Shown here: one piece after another, positions 15,638 through 25,587 of the stretch
Layout of the letters: the number at the start of each line of letters is the position of its first letter
Numbering within the stretch: position 1 is the first letter of the stretch
Assembly: GCF_014697025.1 (NCBI RefSeq)
Contig: NZ_JACJRC010000002.1
Span: 124,001 to 188,000 of the forward strand
DNA: 64,000 nucleotides
DNA from: Alkalinema sp. FACHB-956
GTDB lineage: Bacteria; Cyanobacteriota; Cyanobacteriia; Leptolyngbyales; Leptolyngbyaceae
Direction of reading: 5' to 3'
The notes under the pieces: generated by a model
Databases searched by the model: none
The model's input: the letters and a program-made list of their open reading frames with translations, nothing else
What the model was told of the DNA's origin: nothing
Made by a program: the position numbers and the translations under genes

Positions 15638-17041
15638 TCAATTATTCATGGCATCAAGATGGGGCATGGTTTGGCGGGGGAGGGTAATCACATAGCGATG
15701 GCCGGGGCTTGAACCCTGGATCAGCAGTTGGCCGCCATGGATTTCTGCCAGTTGACGACTGAGGAGCAAACCTAGATTGGCACTCGTGTTGTTGTCATCG
15801 CGGGTTGCTTTTGTCGGCGCATTCATGACCGCCGTTTTGCCATTGGCAAACATCCCCGCTTCTACCGCGTCGCTCCCCTGCAAACTGCTGCTATCACCAT
15901 TGCTGTAGAAATCACTGAAGGGCAGTCCTTCCCCTAGGCAAGGATGGGATACCCAAATGGTTAACTTCAGTCCGTTGCTTTTGTTGGAAACATGCAGCCG
16001 GACAATACTGCCAGCATTGGAAGACTGAATGATACTGAACATCAGATGATAGAGCATCTGACGAATTTTTTCCTTGTCCAACATCCAGATCCGATTACCC
16101 GGTTCCACGGACAGGCGAATTTGTTGTTCTCGACGATTGGCAGCTTGCTCCAGCGTGCTGATGGCTTGCTGGCACAGCATTTCGATGTCCACTGATGATA
16201 GGTTGAGTTGATGATTCCGATCGTCCAGTTCTGACAGTTCCAGAATTTCCTTAACCAAGGAAAGAAGATACTGGCCGCTATGGTGAATGATATCGAGATA
16301 TTCCCGTTGTTTGCCCGTTAAGGGGCCGTAAATTTCCCGAGTCAGTACGCTGGCCATCCCCATCACGGAGGTGAGCGGGGTTCGTAACTCCTGGGTCAAC
16401 TGGGCTAACAGTTCAAACTTGAGGGGGCTAGTAGGGGAATGTTGGGGGAAGGGAATTGCAGGACTGGCCGAGAGGGCTGCACTTTTTTGAGTGCAATGGA
16501 TTCGCTCATACTCACTCATGCTGAGTCGAGCAATCAAGGTTAAAAATTCAACATCCTTTTGGGCAAAGTCTCGGGGACGGAGATCCATGACCGAGAGAAC
16601 CCCAATGCATTGTCCCCCTGACGTGATCAGTGGCACCCCCAGATAAGCCCGGATGCCGTACTGTTGACTGAGGGGACTGTGGCTCAGGGCCGGGTGATGG
16701 AGCGTTTCTGGAACGACCAAACCCTGGCTACTATCGGTCACATAGACACCAAAGGACTCTTCCAAGGAGATCTCTCGACCGATGGATAGCGGATTCATTA
16801 AGCCCAACCGGGATAGCCCGATCGCAGCTTTCATCCGTTCCCGCTCCGTTTCCATCACACTCAACCAACAAATTGGCGCATCCACAAAGTTGGCTGCGGT
16901 TTGAACTGCTTCTTCAAAGACTGGAACCGTTTCTGCTTCAAGTAACCCTAATTCCGTCAAGACTAATTGACGCTGTTGCGTTCTTGCAATCGCTGTCATA
17001 CCATCGAGACGACAATACAGCCGACTTTCAGGACACACCAT
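15638..17041 (-). CDS. GAF-domain histidine-kinase-like protein lacking the phospho-acceptor His
   Basis: 467 residues. Residues about 20-185 form a GAF domain (GIRAYLGVPLITSGGQCIGVLSVMD) of the kind that follows an ALARDTGA-like N-terminus in cyanobacterial kinases. A HisKA-like helix pair follows, but the H-box reads LTQELRTPLTSVMG: the expected phospho-acceptor His is Gln217, read directly from codon CAG. The ATPase part is also degenerate: the N-box has no Asn (MLYHLMFSIIQSS) and there is no DxGxG. Only LGLLLSRQLAEIHGGQL keeps the G2-box look. It is likely a non-catalytic partner or sensor. An alternative start is Met15. Confidence 0.8.
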   Translation of the reverse strand: MVCPESRLYCRLDGMTAIARTQQRQLVLTELGLLEAETVPVFEEAVQTAANFVDAPICWLSVMETERERMKAAIGLSRLGLMNPLSIGREISLEESFGVYVTDSSQGLVVPETLHHPALSHSPLSQQYGIRAYLGVPLITSGGQCIGVLSVMDLRPRDFAQKDVEFLTLIARLSMSEYERIHCTQKSAALSASPAIPFPQHSPTSPLKFELLAQLTQELRTPLTSVMGMASVLTREIYGPLTGKQREYLDIIHHSGQYLLSLVKEILELSELDDRNHQLNLSSVDIEMLCQQAISTLEQAANRREQQIRLSVEPGNRIWMLDKEKIRQMLYHLMFSIIQSSNAGSIVRLHVSNKSNGLKLTIWVSHPCLGEGLPFSDFYSNGDSSSLQGSDAVEAGMFANGKTAVMNAPTKATRDDNNTSANLGLLLSRQLAEIHGGQLLIQGSSPGHRYVITLPRQTMPHLDAMNN

Positions 17042-17097
17042 CCTAACCCCGCTCTAACCTAATTTAAAAACCATGGAACGATTGGATGACAAGGGGC

Positions 17098-17133
17098 TAT
17101 ATAGAGCACTGCATCTATATAGAGCACCACATC
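17098..17133. repeat. 18-bp tandem duplication upstream of the GAF-kinase gene
   Basis: ctatatagagcactgcat is followed directly by ctatatagagcaccacat. The remaining part of the 17042-17337 interval shows no gene. Confidence 0.85.
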
Positions 17134-17337
17134 TAACCATCCCCATCATTCCCGTATTGTCTTTGGGAGAAACGATGAAATAGGTAGCGAGTTTACTGAA
17201 GTTTTACACCGTTTGGGTGAGTTTCTAGTGCGCCCTCGGAAAGATTACGGAGAATTGCCGATCGGTTGGGTACTTTAGGCAACTTGTCGGCCCACTTTAT
17301 CCAATTTTTGGCAAAAACTGGGGGTCGTTAAAGTGGC

Positions 17338-18090
17338 TTAGCTTTCCCACGCTGGATGGCTGAGCAACCCATCAATCACCCGGACCCCCCGTAACTGATT
17401 GGACAACGGTAGGTGTCCTTTGGGGGCTTCGATCGTCCAAACAAATTGGCCGGGGTAGCGTGTCCAGTTAATGCCATCCTTCCAGCCAATCTTCGCCCAG
17501 AGCTTTTCCCAATTTTTACCCACGCTGAGCCAGAGTTCCCGTTGGACAGAGTAGCCAAATTTACCCTCGGAATGGGCTAACCACAGAGCATTGATCGTCC
17601 GTAGATCGGTGGTGGGAAAGGCATTCACTTCGGTGAAATAGACCCATTTGCGCTGAATGGCATCGCCGCCTGCGAGTTCACAGAGTTTTTGGCTGGTGAG
17701 CTTGTCCGCTTCTAAAAAGTCTTGCTGGGCTAGCAGTTGCTGTAAGGGGAGGTAATCGATCGCGCGATCGGATTTGAGGGGGACGATGCCCGTGGGAAAG
17801 TGCTGGGAGAGAAACGCCTGGGCCGCTTCGGTCTGGGCCTTAAAGAGGGCTTGATAGGCTTTGGCAGCGACGGTATTGACTGCGCCGTATTTCGTAAAAA
17901 CCTGCTCGCTGGCCTGGTACTCCCGCAAAAAGTCCATCAGTACTTCGTAGCCCGGTTGCCCGAGGGCGGCCAATTGATCCACGATCGGTAACCGATTGCG
18001 TTCCGTGGCGGACAGAAATTGGGCGCGGAGATCGCTGGGCAGGGGACTGCTGACTGAGGAAGTATCCAGATTTGTCATGAATGCGTTCAT
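17338..18090 (-). CDS. gun4: Gun4, magnesium chelatase activator
   Basis: 250 residues, near the usual length of cyanobacterial Gun4 (about 233). The N-terminal half is the helical bundle seen in cyanobacterial forms; the conserved GUN4 core is residues about 105-245 with DFLEADKLTSQKLCEL, RKWVYFTEVNAFPTTDLRTI, SVQRELWLSVGKNWEKLW and APKGHLPLSNQLRGVRVI. Gun4 binds protoporphyrin IX and its Mg form and stimulates Mg chelatase at the branch between chlorophyll and haem synthesis. The match in the core is strong enough to distinguish it from kinase-fused GUN4-domain proteins. Met5 is an alternative start. It stands alone with no other tetrapyrrole gene nearby. Confidence 0.92.
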   Translation of the reverse strand: MNAFMTNLDTSSVSSPLPSDLRAQFLSATERNRLPIVDQLAALGQPGYEVLMDFLREYQASEQVFTKYGAVNTVAAKAYQALFKAQTEAAQAFLSQHFPTGIVPLKSDRAIDYLPLQQLLAQQDFLEADKLTSQKLCELAGGDAIQRKWVYFTEVNAFPTTDLRTINALWLAHSEGKFGYSVQRELWLSVGKNWEKLWAKIGWKDGINWTRYPGQFVWTIEAPKGHLPLSNQLRGVRVIDGLLSHPAWES

Positions 18091-19971: not shown

Positions 19972-22506
19972 ATGACTAGGCCCGCTTTCTCGATTCTCCC
20001 GTTACCCCGTAGCTTACCCTCTCTCGAAACCTGGGGGTTTGGGTTTAGTGGACTTTTGCTGTGGTTGGGAACAGCGCCAGTAATGCATGCAGAACTTGGG
20101 CCAAATGCCCTGTGGGTCTGGATTCCGGGCACGATCGTAGGCGTGTTTCTGAACTTGCAAGTGCAACAACTGGGACGCTACTTGCCTGACATAGCTGGCG
20201 GAACGCCTAACTATACAGCCCATCTTCTACAGCGCTTTCCCAAACTGGCTCGCTATGGCGCGATCGGATATTTTTTGGGTTGGATTTCAGTGCCGCCGAT
20301 GAACGCCATTATTCTCACGGACTTGATTAAAGCCAATCTCGATCCGTTAGGGATTACCTGCCCTGAACTATGGCTCAGAATTGGCTTTACTGCCCTTCCT
20401 TTTCTGGTTGCCTTTCGCGGAACTCGGACGATCGGGATTCTCCATGCCTTTTTTGTCTTTCCTGCGATCGGCCTTCTCCTGGCATTTTGTCTCCAAGGAT
20501 TAGGGTGGTTAGCAGTGTCGCCCACCAGTCCCGGATTGTTGCCCACCGTAGAAACCAGCATTACCCTCATCGATTGGATGAAATGGTTCTTTATTGCGGT
20601 TTACGCGGTCTATGGCTGCGAGACAGCCTCCTCCTTTGTGGCCGATAGCCGCCGCCCCAAGAGAACGCTGCAATGCTTGGCGGTGACAGCTTGTTTAATT
20701 CCGATCGTCTATATTGGTGGCTCCTGGGTCCTGATGCAGTTGAACCCCGCCTGGGGGGGGGTAGGAGACAGCACCTATCTCCACCTCATTGCCGCCGCTC
20801 AGTCATTTTGGGGATCTTGGGCTGCAACGCTAGTGACCTTTTTAATTACCTCTGGGTGTTTGCTGAGTTCCGCTACAGCAGTGTCCAACTGCCCTCGCAC
20901 GCTCTATCAACTAGCCAAAGATGGTTATTTACCCCCCGTTTTTGCCTTCCTCTCCCGGCAAGAGGTTCTGGAACCTAGCCTCATCTTCACGTTTTGCTTA
21001 AGCCTTCTGTGTTTAATCTGGGGCGATGTTGCACGGGTGGTCATGGTCACCGGAACCGGCTATCTCGCTTCTATGATGGCGATTCACCTCGGGTTGTGGC
21101 TGAACCGGAAACAGCCAGAAGTGCGCTGGCCTCAGTTATCTCTGTTGTTTTTCACGATCGAAGCAATGGTGTTGATCGTGGGTGGGTTGGCTTGGGGTTG
21201 GCAGGATTGGATTCTTGGCTTACTCTTACCAGCATTTGTTGGCATGGCTGCTACCCAAGGCTCGCGCCTGAAATGGAAATGGTTGCAGATTGAAGGCTGG
21301 ATTTATCGCGATCGCCAACGCTTTGCCCGCACACGGAAAGACTGGTTATCTTTCCAGGTCTTGGTCCTGCTGGGTTTACTGTGTGGTGCGCTGAGTATTG
21401 GTTGGGGGGTTCGCTCCAAACTAGCCCAGGTTCCGGATGATCAGTTTACGCCCTTATTCAGTATTTTGTTGGTGATAGTCGCCTTTGTCGGCGTCGCGAT
21501 CGCCTGTTGGACAACGCTACCGCAAATTTCGGCCATTACCGAAGCGCGGGATCAAGTTGAGCGAACCTTGCAGGATTTGCAGCAAACGCAAACGCAACTC
21601 ATCCAAGCTGAAAAAATGTCGAGTTTGGGGCAGTTAGTCGCTGGGATTGCCCATGAAATCAATAATCCCGTCAATTTCATCCATGGCAACCTCAAGCATC
21701 TCAACGAATACACGGATAACTTGTTGCAACTGATTGATCATTACCAAATGCACTATCCACACCCTGTGGATCAAATTACCGATTTAACAGAGGAGATGGA
21801 TTTAGCATTTTTGCGGGAAGATTTACCCAATATGCTGGGGTCTATGCGCATGGGAACCGATCGCATCCGGCAAATTGTTCTCTCCCTGCGGAACTTCTCC
21901 CGCTTGGATGAATCCGATCTCAAGGCGGTGAATCTCCATGAGGGCATTGATAGCACCCTGTTAATTTTGCAACATCGCCTCAAAGCGCGCTCCGATCGGG
22001 CGGAAATTCAAGTCATCAAGGAGTATGGTGAGTTGCCGTTGGTGGAATGCTATCCAGGGCTATTGAATCAGGTGTTTATGAATATCCTGGCGAACGCGAT
22101 CGATGCCTTAGAAGAATGCAGTCAGAAAAAAAAATCTGCACTCTCACCACAGGAATCGGGTCGTATTACGATTCGGACAGCCAGGGTCAATCATGACTGG
22201 GTTGAGATTGCGATCGTAGACAATGGCCCAGGTATTCCTGAATCGGTTCAGAAACGCATTTTTGAACCCTTTTTTACCACGAAGCCGGTCGGAAAAGGAA
22301 CTGGTATGGGCATGTCCATCAGTTACCAAATCATTACCGAAAAGCATCAAGGTAAATTAAATTGTTACTCCAGTGAACAGCAAGGAACCGAGTTCAGCAT
22401 CCAAATCCCGTTGCAGCAAGCGGCTGTTTCTCAACCATCCACCAGTTCCACACCAGGAATTTCTACTGCGTCTAATACCAAATCAACCTGTGATTGCAAC
22501 CCATGA
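19972..22506 (+). CDS. Amino-acid-permease-like membrane domain fused to a histidine kinase
   Basis: 844 residues. Residues about 20-440 contain around 12 hydrophobic segments and resemble APC-superfamily permeases (for example NYTAHLLQRFPKLARYGAIG and the VYGCETASSFVADSRRPKRT segment). Two further hydrophobic segments lie near 465 and 500. A coiled coil (ARDQVERTLQDLQQTQTQL) leads into a HisKA domain with H-box GIAHEINNPVNFIHGN (His561), then a full HATPase with N-box NQVFMNILANAIDAL, DNGPGIP and GKGTGMGMSIS. All catalytic residues are present. By analogy with CbrA-type transporter-kinases, transport or binding of a solute could set kinase activity. No response regulator is adjacent. Confidence 0.85.
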   Translation: MTRPAFSILPLPRSLPSLETWGFGFSGLLLWLGTAPVMHAELGPNALWVWIPGTIVGVFLNLQVQQLGRYLPDIAGGTPNYTAHLLQRFPKLARYGAIGYFLGWISVPPMNAIILTDLIKANLDPLGITCPELWLRIGFTALPFLVAFRGTRTIGILHAFFVFPAIGLLLAFCLQGLGWLAVSPTSPGLLPTVETSITLIDWMKWFFIAVYAVYGCETASSFVADSRRPKRTLQCLAVTACLIPIVYIGGSWVLMQLNPAWGGVGDSTYLHLIAAAQSFWGSWAATLVTFLITSGCLLSSATAVSNCPRTLYQLAKDGYLPPVFAFLSRQEVLEPSLIFTFCLSLLCLIWGDVARVVMVTGTGYLASMMAIHLGLWLNRKQPEVRWPQLSLLFFTIEAMVLIVGGLAWGWQDWILGLLLPAFVGMAATQGSRLKWKWLQIEGWIYRDRQRFARTRKDWLSFQVLVLLGLLCGALSIGWGVRSKLAQVPDDQFTPLFSILLVIVAFVGVAIACWTTLPQISAITEARDQVERTLQDLQQTQTQLIQAEKMSSLGQLVAGIAHEINNPVNFIHGNLKHLNEYTDNLLQLIDHYQMHYPHPVDQITDLTEEMDLAFLREDLPNMLGSMRMGTDRIRQIVLSLRNFSRLDESDLKAVNLHEGIDSTLLILQHRLKARSDRAEIQVIKEYGELPLVECYPGLLNQVFMNILANAIDALEECSQKKKSALSPQESGRITIRTARVNHDWVEIAIVDNGPGIPESVQKRIFEPFFTTKPVGKGTGMGMSISYQIITEKHQGKLNCYSSEQQGTEFSIQIPLQQAAVSQPSTSSTPGISTASNTKSTCDCNP

Positions 22507-22510
22507 CGAT

Positions 22511-22590
22511 CCCTAAATCCCCCTTAAAAAGGGGGACTTTGAAAGAATTTGACTAAATTCCCCCCTTTTTAAGGGGGGCTAGGGGGGATC
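22511..22590. repeat. Paired G/C-rich hairpin repeat after the permease-kinase
   Basis: Two hairpins face each other: ccccc/ggggg around ttaaaaa at 22519-22535, and ccccccttt/aagggggg at 22560-22578. This is the dispersed cyanobacterial repeat type that starts ccctaaatccccc. A single-hairpin relative is at 26304. It may also act as a terminator for the gene ending at 22506. Confidence 0.8.
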
Positions 22591-22631: not shown

Positions 22632-22685
22632 GCATAGGGGCTGGACTTAGCATAGGGACTGGACTTAGCATGGGGACTGGACTTA
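22632..22685. repeat. Three 18-bp tandem repeats ending on the NB-ARC stop codon
   Basis: gcataggggctggactta, gcatagggactggactta and gcatggggactggactta are adjacent. The final tta of the third copy is the stop codon of the minus-strand NB-ARC gene. Confidence 0.95.
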
Positions 22686-24203
22686 GTGGTTGTCGGACTT
22701 GAGTACGGTTTGTAAATACTGCATGATGTATCCGACGATCGTATAGTAGGCGGGGTCGCAGGCATCTCGCTGATTGACGGTCAGAATAGATTTGCGTTGC
22801 AGCGAGGGCAGCAATTCATGGAGCGGCATGGAAAGCAGGGTGCTGGCGAGGGCTTCCTGGAGATCTTGCAAACCGAAGGGAAGCGTTCGATCGCTCAAGG
22901 TATTTAAAAATAACCGTTCTGGGGCAGACAGGCGCTGGAGTTGGCGTTCAATCAGTAACGGAATATCGCCAAATAGCGGAGAATCATAGTCTAAAAAACG
23001 CTCAACACTGCCACCGAAGGGGCCACGAATACAAGCTGCCACCCGTTCTAAGACGACTGGATGTCCTCCCGAATCGCGGAGCAGCGATCGCACTTGCATT
23101 TCGGACAAGCAAGTTACCCCCTTGTCAGCGAAAAATTGCGCGATCGCTTTTTCGCGCCATCCAGACAGTGCCAGTGCATGGACTTTGCCCTGTTCGGCTT
23201 CCTTGAGTTCTACCTCCCGAGGTTTCTCGCAACTGGTGATCACAATTCGGCTTTGGTGGGCTGTGGTGGTGAGTTTTTGCAAAAAATGGCCATAGTCTTC
23301 ATAGCCTGGTCGATAGGAGCCGTGGCAGGTTCCCGGTTCCAAAACGGCTTCCCAACCATCGAGCACTAAGAAACAGGGCGATCGCTGAAAATGTTTCAGT
23401 AAATCTGCAATTTCCCACTTGGAGGCCGACGGATCAAACACCTGAACTAAATCTCGCAGCAGTTCCGGGAGGCGTGGGGGGTGATGGCCAGAGAGATCGC
23501 TGGATAACGATCGCCAAATAACAACCTGAAACGAGGCTCCGATATCATCCAACGCGAGTTTTGCGGCCAAAAATGTTTTTCCGATGCCCTGGAGCCCATA
23601 GATCGTCATCAGACAGCAGGGCGCTAGCAGTTTTTGCACCAGTTGGTCTAGCTCTGGCCTGCGACCATAAAAGCGGGAAATATCGGGGATTGTTCCATCT
23701 TCCTCTAGCCGAAGTTCCTGGGTGGCCGTGACCAGAGGGGCCATGATGGAGTCAGATCGGGGCGGATCATTGACGCGATCGTCGATAGGGGGATCTGAAT
23801 TGGGCAGAACAGGAGGGGGGGAGGCTGGCTCGATCGAAGGTTGCTGTCGCTGGGACCAACGCTGGAGCGGGCCACGAAAGTTCGTTTTACTAACCCGTTC
23901 CTCCACCACATAGGTTAAGTCCTGCCAAAACAGGTTGCCGATATCCTGACGGAGATATTTTTCGCTGTAGCCCTGTTGCTCTGAAATTTGTTGGTAGGTC
24001 AAACCATGGTAGGAACCGCGTAAAATGGCCTCTTCTAAATCCTTGAGAGATCGTCCTAATCCTTTTTGCAAAGCAGTATTGGCGATCGCGATCGCCTGCT
24101 CTAGATTGAGTTCGTGATGACTGCCCCGACGATTTTCACCCTGACGATCTTCACCCTGACGATCTTGCCCCCGACGATCTTCACCCCGATGTTCTTCACC
24201 CAT
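22683..24203 (-). CDS. NB-ARC STAND ATPase with N-terminal HTH
   Basis: 506 residues. After a charged N-terminal tail made of pentapeptide repeats (about residues 2-26), residues about 32-110 are the HTH that begins many cyanobacterial STAND proteins (GSYHGLTYQQISEQQGYSEKY, then RVSKTNFRGPLQRW). An NB-ARC ATPase follows: Walker A GLQGIGKTFLAA (about 207-218), Walker B PCFLVLDGWE (about 280) and the IVITSCEKPREVE sensor region. The protein stops after the winged-helix part; the C-terminal WD40 or TPR repeats usual for the family are absent, so it is a short form. ATG 24203 is the only credible start in frame. Confidence 0.82.
   Translation of the reverse strand: MGEEHRGEDRRGQDRQGEDRQGENRRGSHHELNLEQAIAIANTALQKGLGRSLKDLEEAILRGSYHGLTYQQISEQQGYSEKYLRQDIGNLFWQDLTYVVEERVSKTNFRGPLQRWSQRQQPSIEPASPPPVLPNSDPPIDDRVNDPPRSDSIMAPLVTATQELRLEEDGTIPDISRFYGRRPELDQLVQKLLAPCCLMTIYGLQGIGKTFLAAKLALDDIGASFQVVIWRSLSSDLSGHHPPRLPELLRDLVQVFDPSASKWEIADLLKHFQRSPCFLVLDGWEAVLEPGTCHGSYRPGYEDYGHFLQKLTTTAHQSRIVITSCEKPREVELKEAEQGKVHALALSGWREKAIAQFFADKGVTCLSEMQVRSLLRDSGGHPVVLERVAACIRGPFGGSVERFLDYDSPLFGDIPLLIERQLQRLSAPERLFLNTLSDRTLPFGLQDLQEALASTLLSMPLHELLPSLQRKSILTVNQRDACDPAYYTIVGYIMQYLQTVLKSDNH
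24125..24199. repeat. Five in-frame 15-bp repeats encoding the NB-ARC N-terminal tail
   Basis: Five adjacent units of the form cccgacgatcttcac (plus strand) encode the repeated G-E/Q-D/N-R-R/Q pentapeptides directly after the start codon. Unit length equals five codons, so copy-number changes would keep the frame. Confidence 0.9.
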
Positions 24204-24390: not shown

Positions 24391-25587
24391 ATGCTAGATT
24401 TCGTCCTGATGACCACCCTGGGTTTTCTAGGCAGTTTTGGCCATTGCCTCGGCATGTGTGGCCCGCTCACAGCTGCCTTTTCGCTGACCGATCGCACCCC
24501 CGATGCGCGATCGCGCTTACTGTTCAATTTATGGTTGAACAGCGGGCGCATCCTGAGTTATGGCTTGGTGGGAGCGGCGATCGGGGGCGTCAGTTCGATC
24601 GTGGTTGCGGGTGGTCAATTGGCGGGGATCGGTAGTGATGTGCGGCGGGCCATGGCGATTTTCACGGGGTTGCTACTCATTTGGTTTGGCTTGGTGCAAA
24701 TTCAGCCCCGTTGGTTGCCCCAAATGCCGCTGCTGCATCCCTTGGCCCAAGGACGTTTGCACAACTGGGTGAATCACTGGATGCAAAAGTTAACTCTGGC
24801 CCCCCCGATCGGATTGGGATTGCTGTGGGGATTGATGCCCTGCGGATTCCTATATGCTGCACAAATTAAAGCAGCAGAAACGGCAAATCCCTGGCTGGGA
24901 GCCGCAACGATGATCGCCTTTGGGCTGGGAACGTTACCCATGATGCTGGGCGTGAGTCTCTCCGCTGCGTTTTTCAGTCGCGATCGGCGAAGTCAGTTAT
25001 TCCAACTGGGAGGTTGGGTGACGCTGGCGATCGGGCTGTTAACGGTGCTGCGCAGTAGCGAAATGGTGGACTATACAGGCCATATTGCATTGGGCTTATT
25101 GATGCTGACATTAATCGCTCGACCTATCGCTAAATTATGGTCAGGCCCGTTGCAATATCGGCGCACATTGGGTGTGGGTGCATTTATTTTTTCTGTTTTT
25201 CATAGTGCCCATACTGTTAGTCATACGTTTAATTGGAATTTGCAAGGGATTCGATTTTTACCCTTCTCGCAACAATTGGGAATGGTATTAGGGATGCTAG
25301 CATTACTAGCCATGGTGCCCTTAGCGTTAACCAGTTCCGATCGCTGGGTGCAACGATTGGGACAACGCTGGCGTCAGCTCCATCTGTTGGCGATTCCCGC
25401 CTGGATTTTGATTGTGATCCATGCCATTTTAGTTGGATCCAGTTATTTGGGTGTGGTCGCTCCCACTGCGGTGCACCATAGCCGGACGATCGGACTGATT
25501 GCCATAACAATTCTGATTCTCGCGGTACGATCGCATACAGTATGGTCATGGTTTGGCTGGGGCAAGGGGCATGTTAAATCCAAGTAA
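24391..25587 (+). CDS. UreH/SafE-type (DsbD-like) membrane protein fused to a ferric-reductase-like domain
   Basis: 398 residues, about ten or more membrane helices. Residues 1-230 match the UreH_2/SafE group: GHCLGMCGPL (a CxxxC near the first helix) and WGLMPCGFLYAA, Cys motifs shared with DsbD-like and metal-trafficking proteins. Residues about 245-395 resemble the ferric-reductase-like/MsrQ (YedZ) di-haem membrane domain, with paired histidines FHSAHTVSHTFNW and LHLLAIPAWILIVIHAIL in the positions of its haem ligands. The stop overlaps the next gene, which encodes a FixH/YtkA-like protein. A role in metal or electron delivery to a respiratory or thylakoid enzyme is inferred, not shown. 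Confidence 0.8.
   Translation: MLDFVLMTTLGFLGSFGHCLGMCGPLTAAFSLTDRTPDARSRLLFNLWLNSGRILSYGLVGAAIGGVSSIVVAGGQLAGIGSDVRRAMAIFTGLLLIWFGLVQIQPRWLPQMPLLHPLAQGRLHNWVNHWMQKLTLAPPIGLGLLWGLMPCGFLYAAQIKAAETANPWLGAATMIAFGLGTLPMMLGVSLSAAFFSRDRRSQLFQLGGWVTLAIGLLTVLRSSEMVDYTGHIALGLLMLTLIARPIAKLWSGPLQYRRTLGVGAFIFSVFHSAHTVSHTFNWNLQGIRFLPFSQQLGMVLGMLALLAMVPLALTSSDRWVQRLGQRWRQLHLLAIPAWILIVIHAILVGSSYLGVVAPTAVHHSRTIGLIAITILILAVRSHTVWSWFGWGKGHVKSK

Follow-up and report, generated by a model that had tools for sequence, protein, structure and literature searches.

The 844-residue open reading frame on the forward strand at positions 19972-22506 of the window (the whole 64,000-nucleotide stretch analyzed here) probably encodes a membrane sensor histidine kinase with a recruited APC-fold (LeuT-fold) input domain, and the best reading of the module is that it works like those of CbrA and Ks-Amt5 while lying outside both families. 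The frame begins with an ATG and has no internal stops. Pfam models for AA_permease_2 (residues 37-429; 67.6 bits against a cut-off of 27, E 1.3e-18) and AA_permease (residues 26-377; 33.2 bits against 24.6, E 3e-8) match the N-terminal part of the product, followed by HisKA (residues 552-583, positions 21625-21720; E 1.2e-7) and HATPase_c (residues 697-815, positions 22060-22416; E 2.7e-25), both over their cut-offs. The kinase half carries the phospho-acceptor H561 (positions 21652-21654) within HEINNP, the N box (704-712), the G1 box DNGPGIP (750-756), the F box FEPFFTTK (764-771) and the G2 box GTGMGMSI (776-783). The Pfam matches and kinase boxes thus bear out the first-pass annotation, which had described an APC-type membrane domain joined in one frame to an intact kinase with every motif present. 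The 25 matches listed by NCBIfam all fall on the kinase half, with none reaching its own cut-off. An assembly chimera or chance frame is ruled out by 43 further homologous fusions in other cyanobacterial genomes.

The APC-fold domain proper spans residues about 17-429 (positions 20020-21258). Alignment with hhalign against 19 stand-alone APC permeases of the same genome and its relatives covered 380 columns with an E-value of 9.3e-13, although at E 0.001 AA_permease_2 and AA_permease match only 3 and 28 of the 44 family members, respectively. A search of the PDB with the single sequence returned nothing credible, and the only credible match for the family profile was a lysine permease (E 6.7e-6). 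AlphaFold2 models, built from an alignment of nine sequences, are of low confidence both for the 546-residue module (pLDDT 58, pTM 0.64, with TM1 and TM6 among the worst regions) and for its 413-residue core (pLDDT 51). Among the matches listed for this low-confidence module model, the nearest solved structures are all APC-superfamily transporters, including KimA (Z 23.7; 353 aligned, 3.9 A), BasC (22.4) and AdiC (20.7). By fold and by profile alike, the best matches are therefore to transporters of this superfamily, and no non-transporter sensor family provides a better one.

The GxG motif of TM1 lines the substrate site in APC proteins. In TM1 of the window protein (residues 21-38, positions 20032-20085) this canonical unwound motif is replaced: the GTG of the stand-alone APC protein L092 aligns with a two-residue gap and L30, in a register taken from the sequence alignment only, and family-specific residues occur nearby, W31 in 42 of the 44 proteins and P36 in 40. 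Other APC features are retained across the family. TM6 contains YGCETAS (residues 214-220, positions 20611-20631), wherein position 217 is acidic in all 44 rows (E in 41, D in three) and position 215 is mostly A, G or S; GGTPNY (residues 76-81, positions 20197-20214), the counterpart of the APC GGxY loop, has G76, G77 and Y81 invariant in 44/44; and PRTLYQLAKDG (residues 308-318, positions 20893-20925; PRxLYQLAxDG family-wide), an APC-type loop after TM8, has invariant R309, Q313 and D317. We take these features to indicate an APC fold whose TM1 site has been remodelled. Hence, of the earlier description as a complete permease, the APC homology and fold stand, but functional completeness does not, since the canonical TM1 glycine motif is replaced; likewise, a substrate site may persist in part, its TM1 motif being replaced and its TM6 acidic residue kept. 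The suggestion that the protein senses amino-acid or polyamine flux went too far, given the W31/P36 version of TM1 and the presence of the same module on GGDEF-EAL proteins. Amino acids and polyamines are possible ligands, and K+ or another ion is equally so because of the KimA-like fold match, though a fold match alone shows no function.

Beyond the core, averaged hydropathy reveals two extra hydrophobic segments (residues 460-477 and 495-515) which, with the juxtamembrane junction, occupy positions 21349-21555 and end in the motif VGVAIACWTSLPQ. The junction GVAIACWTTLPQ (residues 507-518, positions 21490-21525) is conserved more strongly than any other part of the module: eight-residue windows of VGVAIACWTSLPQ reach a mean majority-residue share of up to 0.95 over the 44 proteins, the module maximum, while TM1-TM12 average 0.62-0.69. 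Its sequence is nearly identical ahead of kinases, hybrid kinases and GGDEF-EAL domains, and the C-terminal segments and junction, searched alone in 194 genomes, were found only in frames of the APC-sensor family, one of them a shortened frame of 503 codons in G030. The linker from the junction to the DHp region (residues 529-550, positions 21556-21621), helical in the model to residue 545, is probably a coiled coil. On account of its position and conservation, the junction is likely the coupling element, with a role like that of STAC, which is thought to couple transporter and kinase in CbrA (PMC13022988). No STAC-named match was found in the window protein or the family with Pfam, a library that may hold no STAC model.

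The membrane module is present in 35 of 386 sampled cyanobacterial genomes, representing 25 of 143 genera; as the genome searches scored at most three candidates per genome, copy counts are lower bounds, and one genome holds a fourth full fusion that surfaced in the junction search. All 43 near-full-length homologues extracted lie within long fused frames of 819-1182 residues, are 47-72% identical to the window protein over the permease part and carry a signalling output (GGDEF-EAL, or a histidine kinase to which PAS or receiver domains may be added). Tychonema bourrellyi, Phormidesmis priestleyi and Stenomitos frigidus supply named relatives, as do several metagenome assemblies. No intact free-standing copy of the module was seen in sequence and profile searches of the 386 genomes with up to three candidates each, and in its own genome (6.16 Mb in 59 contigs) the membrane part occurs once. 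Neither viral contigs, scanned with the family profile, nor plasmids, searched at the protein level, gave a match. Coverage outside Cyanobacteria consisted of one pattern-based scan, whose sensitivity is too low to demonstrate absence. The profile search of the sampled genomes recovered the same set and, in addition, fragments, most with stops (G030:C55, G167:C3, G278:C49, G300:C21 and G385:C1), which are apparently decaying copies. In Nostoc sp. LPT (L080, 5001-6818) the frame stops after 606 residues, shortly into the kinase, reflecting a broken gene or an assembly error.

The outputs of the 44 proteins, assigned from motifs and length and backed by Pfam counts for every member and by full scans of nine, comprise 24 PAS-kinases, seven kinases, six PAS-kinase-receivers and one kinase-receiver, and, in the c-di-GMP class, five PAS-GGDEF-EAL proteins and one GGDEF-EAL protein. 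In a tree of the module only, which is quick and unrooted and has two long branches, the window protein clusters with four further kinases that lack PAS (SH-aLRT 99), and the GGDEF-EAL rows form one group (SH-aLRT 100) whose sister is a PAS-kinase. Six output changes in all are needed on this tree, suggesting repeated joining of the module to different outputs, and its occurrence on GGDEF-EAL proteins points to a general input module. Neither the window protein nor its closest clade has any other recognised sensor, PAS included. The kinase core, by contrast with the membrane part, has dozens of relatives in its own genome, the best few dozen roughly 45-63% identical, and is joined elsewhere in that genome to MASE1, Cache-HAMP and PAS-GAF inputs, so that the APC module stands in the sensor's place. 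MASE1 and other integral-membrane inputs on this core are likewise large and multi-helix, although MASE1 is a Pfam family of its own whereas the window module scores as an APC permease. Fusion of 43 out of 43 copies to a kinase, kinase-receiver or GGDEF-EAL output is the behaviour of sensory input domains. Together, the family-wide fusion, the swapping of outputs, the conserved junction and the kinase core shared with other inputs argue for a sensory input module.

In the mechanism we propose, a solute or ion would bind or occupy the APC core and shift its conformation; the added pair of C-terminal helices, together with the ACWTSLPQ junction, would relay this shift via the short linker to the DHp helix; and the change there would alter the autophosphorylation of H561 as well as phosphotransfer to a response regulator whose gene lies elsewhere. 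We infer the sensing role as opposed to mere transport, the coupling route and the distant regulator alike. A wider and more tentative proposal, which we hold to be plausible, is that these proteins represent a cyanobacterial class of sensory domain, a non-transporting APC-fold receptor that is never free-standing and whose single conserved helical junction serves kinases, phosphorelay hybrids and c-di-GMP enzymes alike.

Several known systems may be compared. CbrA and CrbS share with the window family an N-terminal LeuT-fold transporter domain, a coupling element, an optional PAS domain, a HisKA-type kinase and an optional receiver. However, their transporter is of the SSS/SLC5 family rather than APC, their coupling element is STAC, to which Pfam showed no match here, the corresponding element probably being two hydrophobic segments with the ACWTSLPQ junction, and, unlike them, the window family includes GGDEF-EAL outputs. 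The contrast drawn earlier with the SSS-family transporter of CbrA holds, since Pfam gave no SSF match to the window protein up to E 1, and AA_permease_2 instead; an ammonium transporter domain was likewise absent up to E 1. The Amt-histidine kinase Ks-Amt5 of an anammox bacterium resembles the window protein in joining a transporter fold with an altered transport site to a HisKA kinase, and PAS, HAMP and STAC are unrecognised in both, but its fold is that of Amt, it is trimeric and its ligand is ammonium. KimA, BasC, AdiC and ApcT have the same fold (Z 20-24) and are homologous in sequence at the family level, yet they are transporters without a fused kinase, whereas the window module is without the TM1 GxG motif and has in addition two C-terminal segments and a kinase. 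In Ks-Amt5 transport has been lost and ammonium binding gates the kinase (PMC5764959), while the SLC5 domain of CbrA transports histidine with kinase activity unchanged by histidine, and CbrA without that domain still signals (PMC7096432). By analogy, these two proteins may bracket the possible behaviours of the APC module.

The replacement of the transporters' TM1 glycine motif, together with the precedent of Ks-Amt5, which exchanged transport for ligand-gated control of its kinase, favors a sensor. Against this, the acidic residue of TM6 and the loops after TM8 and at GGxY are retained as in working transporters and, with the clear APC homology, would fit a true transceptor, in which the APC domain still transports and the kinase responds to the transport cycle or to the solute brought in, a scheme also proposed for CbrA. 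CbrA, whose SLC5 domain transports histidine although histidine left its kinase activity unchanged, indicates that a kinase may bear a transporter-like domain that is not its sensor. Nevertheless, we consider a transceptor unlikely, for the GxG motif is replaced, no intact free-standing copy was seen in the 386 genomes and c-di-GMP enzymes are among the outputs.

The signalling of CbrA without SLC5 could also be taken to mean that the membrane module is a mere anchor or dimerisation platform with the signal entering elsewhere, for instance through the PAS domain that most members possess. This is improbable, as the conservation of loops and core over the 44 proteins exceeds an anchor's needs and the PAS-less clade is without another recognised sensor. 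The same PAS domain could be the sensor if the APC domain were instead the effector, i.e., if the kinase or a partner controlled transport by the fused permease, and fusion alone fits either direction of control. Such an arrangement is very improbable: in the window protein, as in its closest clade, nothing else would be there to drive the kinase, and the GGDEF-EAL outputs synthesise or degrade a soluble second messenger. The sensory input domain hence remains the preferred reading.

Transporter-fold sensor kinases are already known as a kind, and it is the APC-based version that appears to be new. The searchable literature, whose coverage is incomplete and weak on subscription journals, yielded no account of a family of APC-kinase or APC-GGDEF fusions, and the APC-fold sensor family of Cyanobacteria is apparently unstudied. 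To our knowledge, few transporter-fold sensor kinases have been characterised, namely the SLC5-based CbrA/CrbS and one Amt-based protein. A third scaffold, offering many natural versions joined by a single conserved junction to interchangeable outputs, would open the conversion of transporters to receptors to study, wherein module swaps or mutation of the junction would probe how a transporter fold becomes a receptor. Cyanobacteria, which are rich in orphan kinases, would gain a testable membrane nutrient or ion sensor.

In keeping with the first-pass annotation, which had noted the absence of an adjacent response regulator, no receiver-domain gene lies within five frames on either side of the window gene, and none was found within five frames of its four nearest relatives. 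The receiver-bearing hybrids are followed by a same-strand receiver-kinase gene next downstream in seven of seven cases, which include several close relatives and are not seven independent events. In L059 one short antisense frame precedes that gene. Downstream of the tandem copies in L052, as of the copy in L064, lie a receiver-only gene and receiver-kinase genes. The presence of receiver-kinase genes after the hybrids, and of none near the window gene, suggests that the receiver-bearing members act in phosphorelays and that the partner of the window protein is encoded at a distance.

Conserved neighbors were considered as a clue to the ligand and set aside, as they look like lineage-specific synteny. 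Beside the GGDEF-EAL versions in L055, L056, L058, L060, L061 and L062 lies an opposite-strand gene that, judged by eye, is histidine-decarboxylase-like; it is confined to one related group, and synteny is the simplest reading. In L046, an APC-PAS-kinase is followed on the same strand, downstream of 9937 (+), by an H-NOX gene (HNOB, E 7.4e-55) and a kinase whose N-terminus looks HNOBA-like, and the two look like a nitric-oxide-type sensor pair adjoining the APC-PAS-kinase. In the window itself, the raw sequence directly 3' of the gene (22515-22590) contains C-rich/G-rich inverted repeats (CCCCCTTAAAAAGGGGG-like), which might serve as a terminator or be a dispersed repeat. Farther downstream are an opposite-strand frame (22683-24203), whose weak matches to AAA/NB-ARC/NACHT may point to a STAND-type NTPase, and a frame (24391-25584) combining a DsbD_2 membrane region with a ferric-reductase-like region. 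Upstream, on the opposite strand at 15638-18090, are a GAF-histidine kinase gene and a GUN4 gene.
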